Source: an uncultured Acidobacteriota bacterium
GTDB taxonomy: Bacteria > Acidobacteriota > Terriglobia > Terriglobales > Acidobacteriaceae
Direction: 5' to 3'
DNA: 64,000 nucleotides
Assembly: GCA_903832055.1 (NCBI GenBank)
Contig: CAILAC010000013.1
Location: forward strand, 124,001-188,000
Program-made: the position numbers and the translations under genes
In this document: positions 21,807 to 33,019 of the stretch, in pieces
How positions within the stretch are numbered: the stretch's first letter is position 1
Layout: the number at the start of each line of letters is the position of its first letter
The notes under the pieces: model-generated
Database searches by the model: none
Seen by the model: only the letters and a program-made list of their open reading frames with translations
What the model was told of the DNA's origin: nothing

Positions 21807-23684
21807 ATGGCAAAGCAAGAATTCCAGACCGAAGTCTCCCAACTCCTCCAACTCATCGTTCACTCACTCTATTCGCACCCCGAGATATTTCTCCGCGAGC
21901 TCATTTCCAACGCCTCTGACGCGCTCGACAAGCTGCGGCATCTGACCCTGGTTGAAGATGCGTACAAGACGATACCCTTTGACCCGCGCATTGACCTCGA
22001 CCTCGACGAAGAGGCGCAGACGCTGGTGATTGCCGACACTGGCATCGGCATGAATGAAGCGGATCTCATTTCGCACCTTGGCACGATCGCCCGCTCCGGG
22101 ACGAAGAACTTCCTCTCGCAGCTCTCGGGCGATGCCAAAAAGGATTCGAACCTGATCGGCCAGTTTGGCGTTGGTTTCTATTCAGCCTTTATGGTTGCCG
22201 ACAAGATCGAGGTTGTCAGCCGCAAGGCTGGCGAAGAGCAGGCCTGGCGCTGGACCTCGGATGGCAAATCCGGCTTTGAAATTGAGCCTGCCGAGCGCAT
22301 GGTCCCCGGCACGACGATCGTTCTTCACTTCAACGAGGAAGGGAAGCAGTACGCCAACAGTTGGCGTCTCCAGGAGATTGTCAAGAAATACTCCAACCAC
22401 ATCGCTTTCCCGATCTTCCTGACCTACGACAAGAGCGAGTGGAACGCCGAGGAAAAGAAGTCCATCAAGACGCGCACCACTGAGCAGGTCAACGCCGCCA
22501 GCGCTCTCTGGCGTCGTTCAAAGAGCGAGATCAGCGAGGATGACTACAAGGAGCTCTACCAGGCTATTACCGGTGACTCAACAGACCCGCTGTTCTGGTT
22601 CCACACCAAGGCCGAGGGTTCGCTGGAATACACGACTCTTTTCTACATCCCGGCCAAAGCGCCGCTGGACCTGTATCAATCTGACTACCGCGTCGGCGTC
22701 AAGCTCTACGTCAAGCGCGTCTTCATCATGGATGATGCCAAGGAGCTGCTGCCGCAGTATCTTCGCTTCGTGCGAGGCATTATCGACTCTGAGGACCTGC
22801 CGCTTAACGTCAGCCGCGAAATCCTGCAACAGAATCGCGTACTCACCTCGATCCGCGTGGCCAGTGTCAAGAAGATCCTGAGCGAACTCAAGAACATTGC
22901 GACCAACAAGCCAGAGGAGTACCTCCAATTCATCGGAGAGTACAACCGCCCGCTCAAGGAGGGCCTCTACGGCGATTACTCCAACCGCGAGGCATTGCTC
23001 GATCTGGTGCGCTTCAAGTCGACAAAGGCAGAGGGTGTTACCAGCCTCTCTGAAGTCATGACTCGCATGAAGGATGGGCAGAAAGCCATCTATTACATCA
23101 CCGGGGGCAGGGAATCACTGCTGCGCAACTCGCCACTGCTCGAGATCTACAAGAAGAAAGACATCGAAGTCCTCATTCTGGACGATGACTTCGATGAGAT
23201 CATCTTTGCCAACATCGATAAGTATGGTGATATCGAGCTCAAGTCGGTCAACAAGGCCTCGACCAGTGAAGACCTGAAGGATGAATCGGAGCCGGCGGAA
23301 GAAGAGGCCAAGGCTGAATCGATCAAGCCGCTCCTCGACAAAATCAAGGCCGCGCTGGGGGACCAGATCAAGGACGTGCGCGCCTCGGTACGGCTGGCTG
23401 ATTCGCCCTCGTGCATCGTCTCCGATGAGGCTGAGCCGTCGTTGCAGATGCAGCAGATCCTGCGGTCTATGGGGCAGACGGATATCCCGGCGCCCAAGCC
23501 CACGCTTGAAATCAATCCAGACCATGAGATTGTCAAGAAGCTGCTCGCTCATCCTGATGGAGCGCTGGCCGAGGACGCCGCCTGGCTGCTGCTGGATCAG
23601 GCGCTGCTGATGGAGGGCGTCCCACTCAAAGACCCTGCGAGTTTTGTCCAGCGACTTAACCGCGTACTGACTGCCTCAATCTGA
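21807..23684 (+). CDS. htpG: Molecular chaperone HtpG (Hsp90 family)
   Basis: A 625-aa ATP-dependent cytosolic chaperone. The N-terminal GHKL ATPase domain has IFLRELISNASDALDKLR, IADTGIGMNEADL, GTIARSGTKNF and GQFGVGFYSAFMV. The middle domain has LPLNVSREILQQNR. The C-terminal dimer domain follows, with an Asp/Glu/Lys-rich linker (SEDLKDESEPAEEEAKAES). Length is normal for the family. A terminator hairpin follows at 23704. The last ~13 codons are echoed in a repeat 2.2 kb downstream. Confidence 0.97.
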   Translation: MAKQEFQTEVSQLLQLIVHSLYSHPEIFLRELISNASDALDKLRHLTLVEDAYKTIPFDPRIDLDLDEEAQTLVIADTGIGMNEADLISHLGTIARSGTKNFLSQLSGDAKKDSNLIGQFGVGFYSAFMVADKIEVVSRKAGEEQAWRWTSDGKSGFEIEPAERMVPGTTIVLHFNEEGKQYANSWRLQEIVKKYSNHIAFPIFLTYDKSEWNAEEKKSIKTRTTEQVNAASALWRRSKSEISEDDYKELYQAITGDSTDPLFWFHTKAEGSLEYTTLFYIPAKAPLDLYQSDYRVGVKLYVKRVFIMDDAKELLPQYLRFVRGIIDSEDLPLNVSREILQQNRVLTSIRVASVKKILSELKNIATNKPEEYLQFIGEYNRPLKEGLYGDYSNREALLDLVRFKSTKAEGVTSLSEVMTRMKDGQKAIYYITGGRESLLRNSPLLEIYKKKDIEVLILDDDFDEIIFANIDKYGDIELKSVNKASTSEDLKDESEPAEEEAKAESIKPLLDKIKAALGDQIKDVRASVRLADSPSCIVSDEAEPSLQMQQILRSMGQTDIPAPKPTLEINPDHEIVKKLLAHPDGALAEDAAWLLLDQALLMEGVPLKDPASFVQRLNRVLTASI

Positions 23685-23703
23685 CGCTCGAACCAAAATG
23701 AAG

Positions 23704-23741
23704 ATGGCGGCTGCAAGTCAACGCAGCCGCCATAACTTTTT
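23704..23741 (+). terminator. Rho-independent terminator after htpG
   Basis: ATGGCGGCTGC (23704-23714) and GCAGCCGCCAT (23723-23733) form an 11-bp perfect stem, followed by AACTTTTTGG. Confidence 0.85.
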
Positions 23742-23802
23742 GGTACTTTCACTTAAATTGTCCGCGAAAAGCCCTCATTTCATTGATAATCACTGAAATC
23801 AA

Positions 23803-23886
23803 GAAAGCCACCATGGGCGCGCGCTCCGAAGTTTTTCACCATCTCGGCACTGCTCCTGCTGGCTGGTTAAAGTTCATCCAAAGGAA
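23803..23886 (+). repeat. Leader repeat, copy 1
   Basis: An 84-bp segment directly upstream of the 639-aa gene, ending in its ribosome site (AAAGGAA). It recurs almost unchanged at 25984-26068. Confidence 0.85.
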
Positions 23887-23891
23887 AAGCT

Positions 23892-25811
23892 ATGCACCGT
23901 GTCTCGTTAAGGGCTCTTCTGCTCTCGCTCACCCTGAGTGCGCCTGCCTTGTTTGCTCAGTCAGCCAATAATGCTATTGCTGCTGCAACCCCGGTTGTTC
24001 CGCGGCTGGTGAATTTCTCCGGCAAGGTGATCGATGCCAAGGGATCGCCGATTGCTGGCGTTGCCACGGTTTCTTTTGCGATCTACAAGGATGAGGACGG
24101 CGGTTCTCCGCTGTGGCTTGAAACGCAGAACGTGCAGGCAGATGAGTCGGGCAGCTATACGGTGCAGCTGGGGGCGACGGAGCCGGCTGGCCTGGCGCTG
24201 GATCTGTTCAACTCCGGCGAATCTCGCTGGCTTGGCGTGGCGGTCAATGGAGGCGCGGAGCGGCCTCGCATTTTGCTGCTCAGCGTTCCCTATGCGCTCA
24301 AGGCAGCCGATGCTGAGACGTTGGGAGGGCTGCCAGCATCGGCTTTTGTTCGCGCTGGGACGACTCAGCCAAGCGGTAAGCGCCCGGATGCTGTATCCAC
24401 CCCCGGATCCAAGCCAAGGGGCCAGGGAACCAACCCTTCCGTCACTGGCGCAGGGCTTACGGGCTACGTGCCTCTCTGGGATTCCACGAGCGATATCGTC
24501 TCTTCGAACATCTTCCAGCAGGCCACATCTGTGGGTATTGGTACTGCTCTTCCGGCGGCAACGCTGGATGTGAATGGCAAAGCGGATCTTCGCGATACGC
24601 TCACGCTTGTTCCCAAACTCACTGATCCTGTTCTCGCGGTTTCGGGCTCGACCTTTGCGGTTGGCTCGACTGGCAAAGTTACCTTTGCCGTTGGCCAGAC
24701 CTTTCCCGGGACGGGTGCCATCACCGGCATCACTACCGGCTCGACAAGTGGCCTGCAAGGTGGCGGCACATCGGGCGTGCTGAGCCTCAGCGTGAAGACC
24801 GCTGGCATTAGTAACTCGATGCTTGCCCACCCATCAGTCTCTGTGCCAGTGACTGCTCCGCTCACCGGCGGGGGTTCGGTTGCCCTTGGTGGCGCGACTG
24901 TACCGCTGGCCATTGCGCCCTGCGCCTCCGGCAATGTTCTGGTTTCGAACGGAACGACCTGGTCGTGCACTGCTGCGGCGGGAACGGGCAAGGTGGCGAG
25001 CGTAGCCTTGAGCGCGCCCGCAACGGATTTTGTCGTCAGCGGCTCGCCCATCACGACGGCAGGCACTCTTGCGTTGAAATGGAATACCCCGCCCAGCGCG
25101 ACCAATGTTGCCAACTCCATCGTCAAGCGAGATGCTACGGGCAGCTTTGCTGCAACCTCCGTCAGTACCAGCGGCGCAATCATCAGTAACGGTGGCGGCG
25201 TTTCGGGCGCATCCTCTACCGGAGGATACGGCGTCAGCGGAACCTCCTCTGGAGTTGGTGTTCAAGGCCAAAGCACCGGAACCGCGAGCGGCGCCAACGG
25301 CGTCCAGGGGAATACCACGGCCGTCAACGGTTCAGGCGTAGCCGGATTCAACAATGCTGGAGGCATTGGCATCTATGGCCAGGGTGGCACTGGCGTAGCT
25401 GGTGTGGGCAGCGGCGCAGGCGGTACAGGTGTCGTGGGCGTGGGCGATATCGGCTTTTCCACCAATAACAATGTGCAGCAGGGCCGGACGGCGGGCGGCT
25501 GGGTCAAGGCGATGGTTTACGTCAACCAGTTCCAGGCGCCCTACTCCATTGTTCGCTGCTTCAACTCTACCCTCGTTGGGGCAGCCGCAACCACTGTTCC
25601 ATGCGGCATTGACCTGGAAGAAGTCAGTTACGGCCACTTCCATCTCAATTTCAATTTTGAGGTCGACGATCGTTTCTATGTTGCGACCCTCGGCAATAGC
25701 TTCGCCACCTCCACGCTCGTGTGGCCAAGCGGGAAGAATCAGCTTACGGTTGACACATTGGACGCCAGCGTACAGAACATCGGCGGAACCTATAGCCTCA
25801 TCATTTTCTAG
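23892..25811 (+). CDS. Large secreted Gly/Ser/Thr-rich protein
   Basis: A 639-aa exported protein. The signal peptide is MHRVSLRALLLSLTLSAPALFAQ. An N-terminal beta domain (about 38-140, VNFSGKVIDAKG.PIAGVATVSFAIYKDEDGG) ends with VPYALKAADAETLGGLPASAF, a pattern I associate with acidobacterial secreted proteins. The rest is low-complexity, strand-rich and phage-tail-fibre-like (VASVALSAPATDFVVSGSPI, many GVSGTSSGVGV-type turns), ending in a compact C-terminal domain (YSLIIF). Probably a surface or extracellular fibre; no enzymatic motif. A near-identical upstream leader and a collapsed paralog lie just behind it. Confidence 0.75.
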   Translation: MHRVSLRALLLSLTLSAPALFAQSANNAIAAATPVVPRLVNFSGKVIDAKGSPIAGVATVSFAIYKDEDGGSPLWLETQNVQADESGSYTVQLGATEPAGLALDLFNSGESRWLGVAVNGGAERPRILLLSVPYALKAADAETLGGLPASAFVRAGTTQPSGKRPDAVSTPGSKPRGQGTNPSVTGAGLTGYVPLWDSTSDIVSSNIFQQATSVGIGTALPAATLDVNGKADLRDTLTLVPKLTDPVLAVSGSTFAVGSTGKVTFAVGQTFPGTGAITGITTGSTSGLQGGGTSGVLSLSVKTAGISNSMLAHPSVSVPVTAPLTGGGSVALGGATVPLAIAPCASGNVLVSNGTTWSCTAAAGTGKVASVALSAPATDFVVSGSPITTAGTLALKWNTPPSATNVANSIVKRDATGSFAATSVSTSGAIISNGGGVSGASSTGGYGVSGTSSGVGVQGQSTGTASGANGVQGNTTAVNGSGVAGFNNAGGIGIYGQGGTGVAGVGSGAGGTGVVGVGDIGFSTNNNVQQGRTAGGWVKAMVYVNQFQAPYSIVRCFNSTLVGAAATTVPCGIDLEEVSYGHFHLNFNFEVDDRFYVATLGNSFATSTLVWPSGKNQLTVDTLDASVQNIGGTYSLIIF

Positions 25812-25983
25812 GAATCAGACTTTGGTCCAACGACTTGACCGCGTCCTGACTTCGTCAATCCAAAGCCAAGGATGTGAGCAGACAGGGCGGCAGCCAATCC
25901 GGGCTTCCGCCCAGCGATTTTAAGCAGTTTTCTTGAAAATGCGCCAAATCGCACTGAATCCGTGGATAATGACCAAATCCCCT

Positions 25984-26068
25984 GAAAGCCACCATCGGCG
26001 CGCGCTCCGAAGTTTTTCCCCCATCTCGGCACTGCTCCTGCTGGCTGGTTAAAGTTCATCCAAAGGAA
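25984..26068 (+). repeat. Leader repeat, copy 2
   Basis: An 85-bp near-identical copy of 23803-23886 (one extra C in the C-tract and a few substitutions), again ending in CAAAGGAA and followed by ATG at 26074. The stretch further upstream (about 25822-25860) resembles the 3' end of htpG (LVQRLDRVLTSSI against FVQRLNRVLTASI). Confidence 0.85.
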
Positions 26069-26073
26069 TAGTC

Positions 26074-26121
26074 ATGCTCCGCAATTTCACCGCCGCAGAC
26101 TATAACCTTGTCGTTTTCTGA
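26074..26121 (+). pseudogene. Collapsed paralog of the 639-aa secreted protein
   Basis: A 15-codon frame (MLRNFTAADYNLVVF) placed exactly where the paralogous gene would begin after leader copy 2. Its last residues YNLVVF-stop mirror the YSLIIF-stop of the intact protein, as if the whole interior had been deleted and the start fused to the end. Not expected to be functional. Confidence 0.5.
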
Positions 26122-26353
26122 ATAGCAATGTCCGGAGAGTCGGTTGCTTCTGCGAGCACCGTTTTTCTGGACAGCGGCTATTGCGGGATGAGATGCTGGT
26201 GCGCACTGAAACGGGTGACAGAATGAGCCTCGCGTGCGGGCATCTTCTGTCGCTCGCGATTGAGGTTTATCTTGTGAACGGAACCAAGGCGTCAGCCCGC
26301 TCGGTTGGCGCTGAAGTGTAAACGTTCGCAGCGAGAGGGAAGCAGCGAAGTTT

Positions 26354-29300
26354 ATGCGAAGTGGACGACTGACAACCGCCAACACATTGACCGGACAGCA
26401 GCGTAGACTCTCTGCCTTTGCTCTCACGTGCGTGCCGATTCTTGCCCTGACCGGAGTCTTCGTTACGGTAGGTTGCCACGAAAAGAAGCCAGCGATTGTG
26501 ACCGCTGGTCATTTGGATTTCAATCAGGATGTCCAGCCCATCCTCGCCAGCAATTGCTTCAGTTGCCACGGGCCAGACCCGGAGATGCGCAAGGCCGGTC
26601 TGCGCCTTGACCTCGAAGAATCGGCGATGAAGAAGCGGCCGGGCCATCCCGACGCCATTGTTCCTGGACACCCTGATCAGAGCGAAATGATCAAGCGCAT
26701 CGAATCCAAGGATCCGCACCACCTGATGCCGCAAACATCTCTCGGTGAAGCCAAGCCGATGAAGCCGGAAGAGATTGCCATCCTGACCCAGTGGATCAAG
26801 GAAGGCGCGGTATACCGGCCGCACTGGGCCTTTGAAAAGCCGGCCAGGCCCTCGCTGCCAGCAGAAGCGGCTACGGGCGCAAGCCTCAATCCAATCGACG
26901 CGTTTGTGCTTGCGCGGCTCAAAAAAGAGGGGTTGCATCCCTCGCCCGAAGCCGATAAAGCAACGCTGATTCGCAGAGTTACGCTTGATTTAACGGGTCT
27001 GCTGCCCACACCGGCCGAGGTCAGCGCCTTCCAAAAGGACAGCTCGCCGCAGGCCTACGAACACCTGGTTGACAACCTGCTTGCCCGGCCCACGTACGGC
27101 GAACACCGCGCCCGTTACTGGCTCGATTACGCCCGCTACTCTGACACCTACGGGCTGCATTACGACAACAGTCGCAAAGTCTGGCCCTATCGGGACTATC
27201 TGATTCGCGCCTACAACAGCAACAAGCCTTTCGATCAATTTGCCATTGAACAGATCGCCGGAGATCTGCTCCCGGCTAAGAATCTTGATCCCCTGATTGC
27301 AAGCGGCTATGTTCGCCTTGGGGTCAGCAGCAATGAGGGTGGGACAATCCCCGAAGAGTTGCGCACCAACATTGCCCGCGAACGCACTGAAGCTTACGGA
27401 GCTGCGTTCATGGGCGTCACCGTCGGCTGCGCGGTGTGCCATGACCACAAATACGACCCCACGACGCAGAAGGACTTCTACGCGCTCAGCGCCTTCTTCA
27501 ACAACATCGATGAGCGGCCCTACAACAACGACCGTCAGGTGTGGGAACCGATGGTGCGGATTCCAAAGGCAGCGAATCAGGAAGCCTTCAACCGCATCCT
27601 GGCCCGACGGATTGAACTCACGACCAAATTGAATGCCGCACGCTGGCAGCCACGCGCGCAGCTTGAGCCAACGATTGAGCGATGGCTGCATGCCAGCCAG
27701 AATCCGCCACAGCCGGTTTCCGATGAAAAGCTGGCGCTGCGTCTGCGCCTCGATGAGGGCGGCGGAGAGGCCGTCATCAACAGTGCTCCACACCCGCAAA
27801 CGGCATCTTTTCCGCTTGGAAAGTTCAAAGGGCAGTGGGGTGAAACCACCTGGCTATGGCCCGATTTCCGGATGGAAACCAGTACTCGAGTTTTGCTGGG
27901 CCAGACAGGAAACTATGAGTCGAATCAGGCTTTTTCTTCAGGCGGCTGGTTCATGCTGAGGGGCGCACCCAGCCGTGATGCCGTCGGGCCCAGCGGCGCG
28001 CTACTCTCCAAGATGGACACCACCCAGCACAACCGCGGCTGGGACCTCTCCGTCGACAAGGGAACCATCAGCGTCTCGCTCATCAACGAGATTCCCAAGC
28101 CCGGCACGACAAGGGACGGCAAGCCCAAGCCCAAGCCGGCTGCCGCAGAGAAGCCAGAACCGCGCATCGAAGTGTTCAACTTTCCGACGCCTTCTGACCT
28201 GACCGCCAGCGATCTTGCCAACAACAGGCCTGCCAAACAGATTGCAGAAGCCAAAAAGGCCAACGCCGAGTCAGCGAAGTCCTCGAACCCGAAGGACGGA
28301 AAAAAGACATCACCGCCCCCGCCGCCGATGGTTGAGAAGGACGAAACGCCGGAAGTAGCCCTCCGGGTTACAACCGTCAAGGCGCTCCCTCTGGCAGGTG
28401 TCTGGAAACATATCTTCTTCACCTACGATGGCTCAGGCAAAGCCTCTGGCATCAAAATCTATGTCGATGGAGCACCGGCAGAGACCAGGGTTGTCTTTGA
28501 CAGCCTTGGGAAATCGAGCATACTCACCTCAGCGCCCATGCAATTGGGTTGGCGATACCCTGACGCGGAACCTGCCCAGGACACGCGTTATCAGGATATT
28601 CGTCTCTATCAGCGGGCCCTGACTCCGGCGGAAACCGGGCGTCTGCCCATCGAAGACTACGTCGCTGAACTGGCCCACAAGCCCGTCGGCCAGCTCGACG
28701 CTGATCAGTGGCATGCTGTTCGCGACTTTTATTTCAACAGCGTCGACACCTCGTCCCGAGCGATGCAAAGCCAGCTTGCGCCGCTTGACCGGCAACTCGA
28801 AAGGCTTTCAGAGGGCGGGGACCTCACCCAGGTTTCCTGGGAAAAGCCTTCCAACGCCTACGCCCATGTGCTCGGGCGCGGTGCGTATACCACGCGTCTC
28901 GAGCGTGTCGAGGCCAATACGCCGCACTATCTGCCGCCGTTGCCTGCAGGCGAACCACGCAATCGACTTGCGCTGGCCAAATGGACCGTCAGCCCGGAAA
29001 ATCCACTGACCGCGCGTGTCACGGTCAACCGCATGTGGAGCGAACTCTTTGGCGCAGGTCTGGTCGAAACGACGGAAGACTTCGGCATCATGGGCCAGCG
29101 TCCTTCCAATCCAGCGCTGCTTGACTGGCTCGCGGTTGAATTTCGCGAAAGCGGCTGGGACATCAAGCACATGTACAAGCTGATGGTCATGTCTGCGGCC
29201 TACCGGCAAAGCGCGCGATCGACGCCGGAGCAGATCGCCAAAGACCCCAAGAACCTGCTTCTTTCGCACGGCCCACGCTTTCGCATGGATGCTGAAATGC

Positions 29301-29908
29301 TGCGTGATATCGCATTGCAGTCAGGTGGGCTCCTGGTGCCCAGGATCGGCGGACCCAGCGTCAAACCCTACCAGCCCGCCAATGTGTGGGAGCAGGTCAG
29401 CTATCCCATCAGCGATACCGTCATGTACGTCCAGGATCACGGTGAGGCTCTTTTCCGCCGCAGCATGTATACCTACTGGAAGCGCATGGCGATCCTGCCC
29501 GATATGGACGCTTTTGACGCACCGATGCGCGACGCCGTCTGCACGCGGCGCCAGCGCACCGACACGCCTTTGCAGGCCCTCGTAACACTGAACGACGTGC
29601 AGTGGGTTGAGGCTGCGCGCGCGCTGGCGGAACGCGTGATTGAGCAAGGCGGCAAGCAGCCGGAGCAGCGCATTCGCATGCTGAGTGAAATCCTTCTTGC
29701 ACACGATCCTGCTCCACGGACGGCGAGCATTTTGAAAGACTCGCTGACGCAGATGCAGAAGCATTATTCGGCTGATCCCACGGCTGCAAAAGCACTGGTT
29801 GAAGTGGGCGAAAAGAAGCACGATTCGTCCATCCCCGAGCCCGAACTGGCCGCCTGGACGATGGTTGCAAGCGAAATGCTGAACCTGGATGAAACGTTGA
29901 ACAAGTAG
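26354..29908 (+). CDS. Planctomycete-type cytochrome c protein with DUF1549, LamG-like and DUF1553 domains
   Basis: A 1184-aa exported protein. A hydrophobic N-terminus ends in a lipobox-like VTVGC (C41). Next is a PSCyt1 haem domain with SNCFSCHGPD (C68, C71, H72). DUF1549 (about 160-370) contains a second CxxCH in VGCAVCHDHKYDP near 359. A concanavalin/LamG-like insert lies at about 480-770, broken by a Pro/Lys-rich linker. DUF1553 (about 870-1130) has NRMWSELFGAGLVETTEDFG and VMSAAYRQS. These proteins are abundant in Planctomycetes and are thought to act in polymer or redox metabolism at the envelope, without a proven reaction. First gene of a four-gene operon. Confidence 0.88.
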   Translation: MRSGRLTTANTLTGQQRRLSAFALTCVPILALTGVFVTVGCHEKKPAIVTAGHLDFNQDVQPILASNCFSCHGPDPEMRKAGLRLDLEESAMKKRPGHPDAIVPGHPDQSEMIKRIESKDPHHLMPQTSLGEAKPMKPEEIAILTQWIKEGAVYRPHWAFEKPARPSLPAEAATGASLNPIDAFVLARLKKEGLHPSPEADKATLIRRVTLDLTGLLPTPAEVSAFQKDSSPQAYEHLVDNLLARPTYGEHRARYWLDYARYSDTYGLHYDNSRKVWPYRDYLIRAYNSNKPFDQFAIEQIAGDLLPAKNLDPLIASGYVRLGVSSNEGGTIPEELRTNIARERTEAYGAAFMGVTVGCAVCHDHKYDPTTQKDFYALSAFFNNIDERPYNNDRQVWEPMVRIPKAANQEAFNRILARRIELTTKLNAARWQPRAQLEPTIERWLHASQNPPQPVSDEKLALRLRLDEGGGEAVINSAPHPQTASFPLGKFKGQWGETTWLWPDFRMETSTRVLLGQTGNYESNQAFSSGGWFMLRGAPSRDAVGPSGALLSKMDTTQHNRGWDLSVDKGTISVSLINEIPKPGTTRDGKPKPKPAAAEKPEPRIEVFNFPTPSDLTASDLANNRPAKQIAEAKKANAESAKSSNPKDGKKTSPPPPPMVEKDETPEVALRVTTVKALPLAGVWKHIFFTYDGSGKASGIKIYVDGAPAETRVVFDSLGKSSILTSAPMQLGWRYPDAEPAQDTRYQDIRLYQRALTPAETGRLPIEDYVAELAHKPVGQLDADQWHAVRDFYFNSVDTSSRAMQSQLAPLDRQLERLSEGGDLTQVSWEKPSNAYAHVLGRGAYTTRLERVEANTPHYLPPLPAGEPRNRLALAKWTVSPENPLTARVTVNRMWSELFGAGLVETTEDFGIMGQRPSNPALLDWLAVEFRESGWDIKHMYKLMVMSAAYRQSARSTPEQIAKDPKNLLLSHGPRFRMDAEMLRDIALQSGGLLVPRIGGPSVKPYQPANVWEQVSYPISDTVMYVQDHGEALFRRSMYTYWKRMAILPDMDAFDAPMRDAVCTRRQRTDTPLQALVTLNDVQWVEAARALAERVIEQGGKQPEQRIRMLSEILLAHDPAPRTASILKDSLTQMQKHYSADPTAAKALVEVGEKKHDSSIPEPELAAWTMVASEMLNLDETLNK

Positions 29909-29921
29909 TTGAGGGAGTGCC

Positions 29922-31496
29922 ATGAAGCAGCATCCACTATGCACGGATACTGAACACGACAATCACGAGAGCGCACTGGATGCGGCGATACCGCATATGC
30001 CAATCCCTGCTGAGACCCGGCAGCAGTGGATCGACCTTCAGACCCGGCGGCAGTTTCTGGGCCGAGGGGGCAAGGTTCTCGGCTGGGCGGCACTCGCCAG
30101 CCTGCTCGGGGATAACGCCCTTCGCCCGGCTGCTCATGCAATGGGCAGCGCTGACGCGCAGAAGCTCCCGACGCCGGATGATCTCAAGGTGCCGCATTTC
30201 GCTCCGAAGGCCAAGCGCGCCATTTATCTCTTCATGTCGGGTGGGCCGCCGCAGATTGACATGCTTGATTACAAGCCCAATCTGGCCGCGCTCTATGACA
30301 AAGACATACCAGATTCTGTGCGTGGCAACCAGCAACTCACCGGCATGACCAACGGTCAGGCGCGCTTTCCCATTGCGCCCTCGCATTGGGCCTTCAAACG
30401 CTACGGCAAGACGGGTACCTTTGTGAGCGACCTGCTGCCGTACACGGCCCGCATGGTTGACGACCTTGCCATTATCAAATCCACGAATACCGAGGCGATC
30501 AACCACGAACCCGCCATCATGCTCATGAATACGGGCAACATGAATGCAGGCAAGCCGTGCCTTGGCTCGTGGCTTTCCTATGGCCTCGGCAGCATGAACG
30601 ATAACCTGCCGCGTTTCATGGTTCTGCAGACGAAAATGAATCCGAAGGAGAACAACCAGCCGGTATCTTCGCGGCTGTGGAGCAGCGGTTTTCTCTCTTC
30701 AGAGTACTCCGGGGTGGGGCTGCGTTCATCGGGAGACCCGGTTCTCTACCTTACTGACCCCAATGGTGTTGATCGCGAAGTTCGGCGCAAGATGCTCGAC
30801 GCCGTCGAACAGATCAATCACCAGACGCTTGCCGAACTTGGCGATCCAGAAACCAACGCCCGTATTGCCCAGTACGAAATGGCGTACCGCATGCAGGCTT
30901 CCGTTCCAGAGCTGGCCGACCTCAGCAAGGAGCCGCAGTCTACCTGGGACCTCTACGGGCCTGAAGCAAGGGAGCCCGGCACCTTTGCCTACAACTGCCT
31001 GCTGGCGCGGCGCATGGCCGAGCGCGGCGTGCGTTTCACCCAGATTTACAAGCGTGGCTGGGACCTGCATGACAACGTCACCGGTCTGCTGCCCATCATC
31101 TGCGGCGAAGTGGATCGCGCCTGTTATGCCCTCGTCACCGACCTGAAGCGACGTGGGCTGCTCGACGACACGCTCGTCGTCTGGGCCGGGGAATTTGGCC
31201 GCACTGTCTACAGCCAGGGTGGCCTCAGGAAGGATAACTATGGCCGCGATCACCATCCTCGCTGCTACACAACGTGGATGACCGGCGGCGGCGTCCGCAC
31301 CGGCATTACATACGGAGAAACCGACGAGTATAGCTACAACGTGGTCAAAGACCCCGTCCCGGTGCGCGATTTCAACGCGACGTTGCTGCACTGCCTGGGC
31401 ATTGACCACAACAAGCTCACCTATAAATTTCAGGGGCTCGATCAGAAGCTGACCGGCACCACTCCCGCCAGTGTTGTCAAAGGATTGCTGGCCTGA
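29922..31496 (+). CDS. Tat-exported DUF1501 protein
   Basis: A 524-aa protein with a twin-arginine signal (TRRQFLGRGG at 41-50, then GWAALASLLG) and the DUF1501 fold, related to alkaline phosphatase/sulfatase enzymes: IYLFMSGGPPQIDMLDYKP, AINHEPAIMLMNTG, YNCLLARRMAERGVRFTQIY, VVWAGEFGRT and YGRDHHPRCYTTWMTGGG. Metal-site-like Asp/His residues are present, but the catalytic Ser/Thr of sulfatases is not obvious. DUF1501 genes regularly follow DUF1549/DUF1553 genes, as here (13-bp gap). Its stop overlaps the next start (TGATG). Confidence 0.88.
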   Translation: MKQHPLCTDTEHDNHESALDAAIPHMPIPAETRQQWIDLQTRRQFLGRGGKVLGWAALASLLGDNALRPAAHAMGSADAQKLPTPDDLKVPHFAPKAKRAIYLFMSGGPPQIDMLDYKPNLAALYDKDIPDSVRGNQQLTGMTNGQARFPIAPSHWAFKRYGKTGTFVSDLLPYTARMVDDLAIIKSTNTEAINHEPAIMLMNTGNMNAGKPCLGSWLSYGLGSMNDNLPRFMVLQTKMNPKENNQPVSSRLWSSGFLSSEYSGVGLRSSGDPVLYLTDPNGVDREVRRKMLDAVEQINHQTLAELGDPETNARIAQYEMAYRMQASVPELADLSKEPQSTWDLYGPEAREPGTFAYNCLLARRMAERGVRFTQIYKRGWDLHDNVTGLLPIICGEVDRACYALVTDLKRRGLLDDTLVVWAGEFGRTVYSQGGLRKDNYGRDHHPRCYTTWMTGGGVRTGITYGETDEYSYNVVKDPVPVRDFNATLLHCLGIDHNKLTYKFQGLDQKLTGTTPASVVKGLLA

Positions 31497-33019
31497 TGCT
31501 CAGAGTTTCCCGCAAGCTGGTTGACCCTGATGCCGTCAAAGCCTGGCTAAGCCAGAGCCACTCGCGACCGCGCATCGCGGCTGTGGCGCTCACACTGGTT
31601 TTGCTTTCACTGCCGTTTGTTGTGCGGCTTGATGGGAAGCCCCACGCCGACTGGCAGCAACTCCTGGGCCGATTTCATCCGCTGGCGGTGCATTTGCCCA
31701 TCGGCCTCATCGTGCTTGTTCCGCTTCTCGAAATCGGAAGCAAGCTCCGCCCTGCGCTGCGCGAAGCAGTTGATTTTGTCCTCGCGCTTGCCCTGGTCAG
31801 CTGCCTGGGCTCACTCACTCTTGGCTATCTGCTGGCTTACGGCAGCGGAGCCTCCGGGCCCACCGTTACCGCCCACCTTTGGGGAGCCATCGTGCTCTCA
31901 ATCGGTGCCATGCTCTGCCTGTTTGTGCGTCCCGCGTGGATTGCTGCAAGCGCGTTCAGTGCGGAGAACGGCCAGATATCCCTCGCCAAAGCTCTGTATC
32001 CCAGTCTGCTCGCCGGCGTCGTGCTGACTCTTGCGTGGACTGCTCATCAGGGTGGTTCTCTGACGCATGGCGCGAACTATCTGACGCAATACATGTCGCC
32101 TGGAATGCAGCGCTGGTTGGACTTCGATTCTCACCTCGCCAGCACAAAGGACGCAGGATCGTTCTACGCCCGCCACATCAACCCGGTTCTCGACACAAAC
32201 TGCGTTTCATGCCACGGCGAAAGCAAGTCCAGCGGTGGACTGCGTCTCGATTCATATGAGCAACTGATGAAGGGTGGCAAGGATGGCGCGGTGATCGTTG
32301 CCGGCCATCCTGAAACAAGCCTGCTCATCGAGCGCATTACGCTGCCCACGAGCCACAAACTCTTCATGCCTGCCGAGGGTCGTCCCCCGCTGCAATCAGA
32401 GGAGATTGCCTGGCTCAAAAGCTGGATTACACAGGGTGCTTCGGCGAGTGCCACGAAGCTTGCCGGGGTCGCAATCCGAGAAGATTCCACGGAGTCGATG
32501 GACCCTCCGCCGCAGCCGGTTGCGGATTACAGCGCACTGTTGCCTGAGATCAGCCAGCTTGCGCAGGGGCAAGGCGCAAAGCTGCTGCCAGTCTCCAGCA
32601 ATCCGTCAGATGGTCTCATCCTGAGCACCACCGATGTCTCCCCGACATTTAATGACGCGCAACTCGCCCAGTTTCAGAAGTTTGCGCCCTACATTGTCGA
32701 GGCAGAACTTGGCCGCACCGCCGTTACTGACGCCGGCTTTGATACGCTCGGCAAGTTCACCCACCTGCGCAAGCTCCACCTCGAGGGTACTGCTGTCGCT
32801 GGAGGCAACATCGCCAAGCTCGCATCGCTGGCTGATTTGAGATACGTCAACCTCAGCGGAAGCAGGGTGACACCGGCCGCTGCAGCCGCGCTCGACAGCA
32901 TGAAGAGCGTGCGCCATGTTTATCTATTCAACACGCCCGCCCAACCCGCAACGACAGCGGCCGCACAGCAAGACACAGCGCCAGATGATGCGCAGGACAA
33001 AACGAGGAAAGCAGAATGA
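31496..33019 (+). CDS. Membrane-bound cytochrome c protein (DUF2231-like) with leucine-rich tail
   Basis: A 507-aa protein. The N-terminal part has five or six membrane helices (about 28-185) with the DUF2231 motif LGRFHPLAVHLPIGLIVLVPL. A planctomycete-type haem domain follows with DTNCVSCHGESKSSGG (C236, C239, H240) and LFMPAEGRPPL..EEIAWLKSWI. The C-terminal part (about 380-480) holds short leucine-rich repeats (FTHLRKLHLEGTAV, LADLRYVNLSGSRVT). It could pass electrons from the exported partners into the membrane. Overlaps on both sides indicate one tightly coupled transcript. Confidence 0.85.
   Translation: MLRVSRKLVDPDAVKAWLSQSHSRPRIAAVALTLVLLSLPFVVRLDGKPHADWQQLLGRFHPLAVHLPIGLIVLVPLLEIGSKLRPALREAVDFVLALALVSCLGSLTLGYLLAYGSGASGPTVTAHLWGAIVLSIGAMLCLFVRPAWIAASAFSAENGQISLAKALYPSLLAGVVLTLAWTAHQGGSLTHGANYLTQYMSPGMQRWLDFDSHLASTKDAGSFYARHINPVLDTNCVSCHGESKSSGGLRLDSYEQLMKGGKDGAVIVAGHPETSLLIERITLPTSHKLFMPAEGRPPLQSEEIAWLKSWITQGASASATKLAGVAIREDSTESMDPPPQPVADYSALLPEISQLAQGQGAKLLPVSSNPSDGLILSTTDVSPTFNDAQLAQFQKFAPYIVEAELGRTAVTDAGFDTLGKFTHLRKLHLEGTAVAGGNIAKLASLADLRYVNLSGSRVTPAAAAALDSMKSVRHVYLFNTPAQPATTAAAQQDTAPDDAQDKTRKAE

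Follow-up and report, generated by a model that had tools for sequence, protein, structure and literature searches.

The htpG locus and its direct repeat

The window, that is, the whole 64-kb stretch of DNA analysed here, lies on contig C13 of a draft genome of 4.57 Mb in 18 contigs. The 80 named htpG relatives include Granulicella, Edaphobacter and Terriglobus, along with many other Acidobacteria and a few carrying different labels, and on this basis we place the genome in the Acidobacteriaceae. From left to right, the locus carried htpG, a hairpin, a leader and a gene for a 639-aa protein (gene A), then repeats of the htpG end, the hairpin and the leader, followed by a 15-codon frame (B) and a PSCyt-type gene. 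The features are listed below, with comparisons to the closest relative, G002.

21807..23684, + strand: htpG (Hsp90), 625 aa, whose 3′ end is copied; Pfam HSP90, 7.9e-122; G002 protein 94% identical
23704..23733, + strand: terminator-like hairpin 3′ of htpG, an 11-bp stem followed by AACTTTTT; listed by the terminator scan; fold z −5.03
23803..23891, + strand: leader copy A, from the direct repeat and the segment alignment
23892..25811, + strand: gene A, 639-aa secreted fibre-like protein with a signal peptide (by eye) and a C-terminal tip at about residues 515–639
25818..25860, + strand: copied htpG 3′ end, beginning 7 bases past the gene A stop; 36/43 against 23639–23681
25884..25913, + strand: copied htpG hairpin, now 3′ of gene A; fold z −3.95; absent from the terminator-scan list
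25984..26073, + strand: leader copy B; 84/89 against leader A
26074..26121, + strand: putative gene B remnant, 3 start codons, the last 12 codons and the stop; last 12 codons 33/36 bases against the G002 gene end
26082..26083, no strand: probable deletion junction in gene B, approximate; the G002 alignment begins at 26083 and continues through the flank
26122..26353, + strand: native downstream flank, orthologous to the flank of the G002 gene; 184/229, with block 26150–26209 at 59/60
26354..29908, + strand: PSCyt1/PSCyt2/PSD1 (DUF1549/DUF1553) protein, the right-hand anchor; G002 protein 84.5% identical, in the same place

Segment A (23639–23899) and segment B (25818–26081) formed a pair of direct repeats with a spacing of about 2,180 bp. 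In both, the htpG 3′ end, the hairpin, the leader and the start codon occurred in the same order and on the same strand, so that the shared upstream DNA extended beyond the gene itself, as sought in a collapsed duplicate. The direct-repeat search returned two adjoining families, 23803–23840 against 25984–26021 (95%) and 23832–23899 against 26014–26081 (91%). The spacing of both was 2181–2182, equal to the stretch between the htpG tail and a point a few bases beyond the gene A stop, as a tandem duplication of that unit gives. A preliminary description of this DNA had reported two segments of ~240 bp, 2.2 kb apart; the spacing was confirmed, while the length was slightly greater, at ~260 bp.

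Each part of the segments was aligned globally and compared with 500 shuffles of one sequence. The htpG tails matched at 36/43 aligned bases (score 61.5, shuffle maximum 23.5), the spacers from htpG stop to leader at 70/107 (48.5 against 36), the leaders at 84/89 (155.5 against 36), and the first start-codon bases at 7/8, the last of these barely above its shuffles (12.5 against 12). All four scores thus exceeded every shuffle, bearing out the repeat that had been described. The ribosome site was identical as described, with AAAGGAA and its distance to the ATG equal in both copies.

Other features of the leaders were noted by eye. The motif GATAAT was common to both copies. In leader A, one frame of 23803–23880 reads as a hydrophobic stretch that resembles a signal peptide and runs up to a stop, and leader B was shifted by one base in this region; the stretch is perhaps the relic of an older gene start, or due to chance. 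Neither leader behaved as a structured RNA (leader A z 0.06, leader B z 1.55) or matched an Rfam family at E up to 1. No sigma-70-like promoter was found in the leaders, the single site identified, against 1.0 expected, being on the minus strand elsewhere. In 61 genomes, leader A was found at its two positions in its own genome, the only other hit being 33 bases long, in G004, and lying outside the leader part. Leader B, searched in 398 genomes, gave hits to these two copies, to the end of the G002 gene, and over 28 bases in G215; the last was set aside as chance, the longest frame there being unlike the fibre-like family.

The htpG hairpin and its copy both folded better than shuffled sequences. 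Of 11 stem pairs in the copy, 7 were unchanged, 2 had changed on both sides yet still paired, and 2 were broken. Under a loose criterion, a hairpin occurred 3′ of htpG at 63 of 82 htpG loci, a set that contains duplicates and in which G002, counted twice, has none; its GCGGCTGC/GCAGCCGC core was also present 3′ of htpG in several relatives. The terminator scan found 3 sites in all, against 3.5 expected from shuffles, with the htpG hairpin among them; the copy, which has a shorter T run, was not listed. Both hairpins may terminate transcription, and the comparison of these two sequences is suggestive of an htpG terminator now serving gene A, although the scan result speaks against it.

Identity of the 15-codon frame

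G002 is a metagenome assembly, and its contig is the same as that of record JANYDG010000106.1 (L020). The flanking neighbours were those of the window, htpG (94% identity) and the PSCyt gene (84.5%). Between them was a 150-codon open frame of the fibre-like family, truncated at its 5′ end and terminating in NYTAADYNLVVF-stop. This frame began 13 bases past the htpG stop and gave 126 aa when counted from the first GTG; it lacked a leader and, as judged by eye, a signal peptide, and no match to the N-terminal part of the family was found in G002 at E up to 0.001.

The 15-codon frame at 26074–26121 reads MLRNFTAADYNLVVF and ends in NFTAADYNLVVF-stop, while gene A ends in GGTYSLIIF. The resemblance of its start and end to those of the 639-aa gene (YNLVVF against YSLIIF) had been pointed out, and was upheld, though the end was closer still to that of the G002 gene. 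Over the last 12 codons, B matched G002 at 33/36 bases, compared with 24/36 for gene A and G002 and 23/36 for A and B. When both strands of the 64-kb window were scanned with the last 36 coding bases of G002, the 33/36 match at 26083 was followed by 24 at the end of gene A (25773) and by ≤23 elsewhere; such a margin excludes chance for the end of the frame. Alignment of the window with G002 began at 26083, just past the B start codons, and continued through the stop into the flank, which matched at 184/229. Both the end of B and its flank are thus orthologous to those of the G002 gene, as judged from these alignments. A remnant ending like a gene of the same family, in its native flank, is what a collapsed duplicate should leave. 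The shared end and flank indicate that the B frame consists of the start and native end of one gene, with the body missing, and we read B as a collapsed paralog in which start codons are joined to that end. Neither the frame in an unrelated context nor a lack of similarity on alignment, the findings that would have spoken against this, was encountered. After the stop, GAATC in gene A resembled GGATC in G002.

The flank, which separates the B remnant from the PSCyt gene, itself contained a non-coding block, 26150–26209, that matched G002 at 59/60, against 13–24 identities in the other 30-column steps, and the block was found in 2 of 300 family genomes, those of the window and G002. It had no Rfam match and no notable fold (z 0.46, −1.53), and is possibly a control region of the PSCyt operon. 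In the window, the PSCyt1/PSCyt2/PSD1 gene is followed by two further genes (29922–31496 and 31496–33019; 26354–33019 overall), an order kept in G002. PSCyt/PSD1 genes beside DUF1501 genes are typical of Planctomycetes.

An intact paralog at this site had been suggested as something to look for in relatives. None was found in the 15 genus genomes searched, including that of the window, and in G002 the gene was 5′-truncated. The flank and site were common to G002 and the window's own genome among these 15. At a tblastn E of 1e-8, a fibre gene near htpG was detected at L020 alone among 80 named htpG loci, several of which have little or no downstream DNA. In the assembly as it stands, G002 is truncated differently from B: a different deletion could have removed its htpG hairpin, its leader and the 5′ part of the gene, or, this being a metagenome assembly, an assembly fault could have done so. 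The former would make two losses in two genomes at one site, of which that in G002 needs confirming for the same reason. The truncation in G002 and the patchiness of the family support the suggestion of gene turnover in a variable family at this site.

A probable duplication followed by an internal deletion, and its alternatives

Very probably, a tandem duplication took in the fibre-like gene and the 3′ end of the gene before it, after which all but a few codons at either end of the second copy were lost. The ancestral site would have carried htpG, its terminator, the leader, a single fibre-like gene and the PSCyt gene. A unit of ~2,180 bp, from the last htpG codons to a few bases past the fibre gene stop, would then have been duplicated in tandem. 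Copy A would have been kept as the 639-aa gene, followed now by a copy of the htpG hairpin. In copy B, an internal deletion would have fused codon 3 with the 12th codon from the end and removed the body, so that the leader, the ribosome site and the 15-codon frame are what remains. Tandem duplication and internal deletion, already proposed in the preliminary description, fit the orthology of the B end and its flank with those of G002. We infer a formerly full-length B, and a duplication that preceded the deletion, no genome with an intact B having been found.

A single duplication with even divergence would not account for the repeat. Identity along it was uneven, at 84% in the htpG tail, 65% in the spacer and 94% in the leader. 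The leader was significantly more alike than the adjacent spacer (84/89 against 70/107; Fisher p = 4e-7), and the last 12 codons of A and B were less alike than the leaders (p = 4e-5). In identity, the htpG tail did not differ significantly from either the last 12 codons (p = 0.07) or the leader (p = 0.057). The excess of leader over spacer identity is not expected of one event and even drift, and requires homogenisation or constraint of the leader besides duplication. The high leader identity would thus reflect either later homogenisation by recombination or constraint.

The end that differed from G002 was that of the surviving gene A, not that of B. The C-terminal part of gene A and the G002 fragment were compared in five blocks of 27–30 codons, one of them saturated at synonymous sites. 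Their dS of 1.26 lay between the lowest and highest values of four ortholog pairs nearby (0.87, 1.27, 1.00 and 1.36), suggesting that the two are about as far apart as (co-)orthologs; the C-terminal part of gene A was also sister to the G002 fragment in a tree, with weak support (83/82). Non-synonymous change between them rose along the five blocks, from pN 0.06 to 0.43. As B has kept an end like that of G002, the terminal change is placed on the A branch.

The duplication may predate or postdate the split from G002. An initial dating by the htpG tail, which placed it after the split, was discarded because it had compared 36/43 with 34/48 over unequal stretches; over equal stretches, the values were 36 and 30 of 43 (p = 0.20). 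At these positions, A shared 36 bases with B and 30 with G002, the two counts to which the p value applies, and B shared 28 with G002.

The outlying end of gene A (24/36 to G002, against 33/36 for B) and the uneven identity would also be expected if gene A were a newcomer, a divergent htpG–leader–gene fragment from another strain that recombined beside a resident B, so that A and B differ as strains do. We regard this as rather unlikely. Synonymous divergence between gene A and G002 was within the range of the neighbours, and no close donor tip was found in the 398 family genomes searched. This is, moreover, a variant of the same duplication and, with two genomes, inseparable from it.

It is less likely again that B never had a body and that a single complex event, such as replication template switching, fused a second leader to the last codons. 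The clean, in-frame junction would suit such an event, as would the failure to find an intact B in any genome searched. It would, however, require an extra coupled event in one step, and B is not a fresh copy: it differs from A at 37/107 spacer and 13/36 end positions, leaving time for a separate deletion.

The frame retains a ribosome site, a start and a stop, its leader is 94% identical to leader A, and it might on these grounds be a working small gene or leader peptide controlling the downstream PSCyt operon. This is very improbable, given that its codons are the end of another gene, that the PSCyt gene and its conserved flank are present in G002 without such a frame, and that leader B folds no better than its shuffles (z 1.55). 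An assembly artefact or chance similarity, which a draft of 18 contigs might prompt one to consider, is hardly credible when the copies are non-identical, all four segment scores exceed all 500 shuffles, and the end of B recurs in another genome.

The fibre-like family and comparison with known systems

The 639-aa protein had no Pfam match. It matched NCBIfam NF053851, the N-terminal model of the Bdellovibrio mosaic adhesive trimer (MAT), at E 1.8e-6 and 27.8 bits, below the curated cut-off of 60; four homologs also matched below the cut-off, at 14.5 to 28.6 bits, the weakest at E 0.023. No PDB sequence match was found at E up to 1, and monomer structure models (mean pLDDT 37.4 and 32.2) were too poor for a fold search. 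Origin from a phage tail fibre was considered but received no support: a search of 50,697 phage records at E 1e-5 gave nothing, none of the 5 pattern matches in the IMG/VR scan was a relative, and the best E in PHROGs was 0.11. Among the matches listed in the literature on duplication or conversion and Acidobacteria, no title named the family.

Of 300 family genomes, 69 matched an N-terminal query (169 aa); a single genome had as many as 12 matches, the largest number of candidates scored for any one. A tip query (125 aa) was found in 8 of 398, the two counts coming from different genome draws and query lengths. The family thus combines a shared N-terminal part with variable C-terminal tips, the tips being different or too diverged to detect.

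Signs of turnover were also present at other loci. Among these N-terminal matches, five pairs of same-strand family neighbours had spacings of 2.5–3.1 kb; G303 contained two of them, and G174, G070 and G000 one apiece. In the tandem pair on contig C16 of the window's own genome (G000; L121:4170-8754, minus strand), about 500 alignment columns were 95–97% identical inside genes otherwise 44–84% alike, an 84% block adjoining the high-identity tract. In 150-column steps, the tract stood at 0.95–0.97, against 0.45–0.81 outside. The downstream member had a reading frame broken near its 3′ end. The tract appears gene-conversion-like, judging by its pattern of identity. No such tract was seen between gene A and three other copies in its genome (0.39–0.65 in 150-column steps).

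These observations are compatible with duplication and conversion serving to diversify the tips. Tentatively, and with more doubt than confidence, the MAT-like secreted fibre family of Acidobacteriaceae may diversify its tips by repeated tandem duplication, conversion between neighbours and the discarding of spent copies, the htpG site being a fossil of one round. The surviving copy would then carry the changed end and the discarded copy the old one. The locus also points to a tip-variable, fibre-like secreted family in Acidobacteriaceae without a Pfam match or an NCBIfam match above cut-off, for which adhesion is a testable role.

Three known systems offer comparison. In the available part of the source, MAT proteins have a conserved domain of ~130 aa after the signal peptide and C-terminal tips exchanged between members (PMC10769870). 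The 639-aa protein resembles MAT fibres, as described there, in its signal peptide (by eye), weakly profile-matching N-terminal part, glycine-rich repetitive middle and member-variable C-terminal part. It differs in its score of 27.8 bits against a cut-off of 60, and it is known here from sequence, not as a trimer or by its surface or ligand; we therefore describe it as MAT-like and do not file it as a MAT member. Gene conversion between tandem paralogs has its likeness in the C16 pair, whereas at the htpG site the homogenised appearance is limited to the 89-base leader, for which constraint is an alternative. The third is tandem duplication with pseudogene collapse. The direct repeat of leader and neighbour end, the second copy reduced to its two ends, and the native flank retained are all as in that process; the differences are that the intact second copy is unseen and that leader identity exceeds that of the adjoining spacer. 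The process is an ordinary one. What is unusual is how completely its steps can be read, and the locus cleanly illustrates how a bacterial gene can be copied in tandem and then lost through an internal deletion, a copy of the terminator-like hairpin of its neighbour being carried along.
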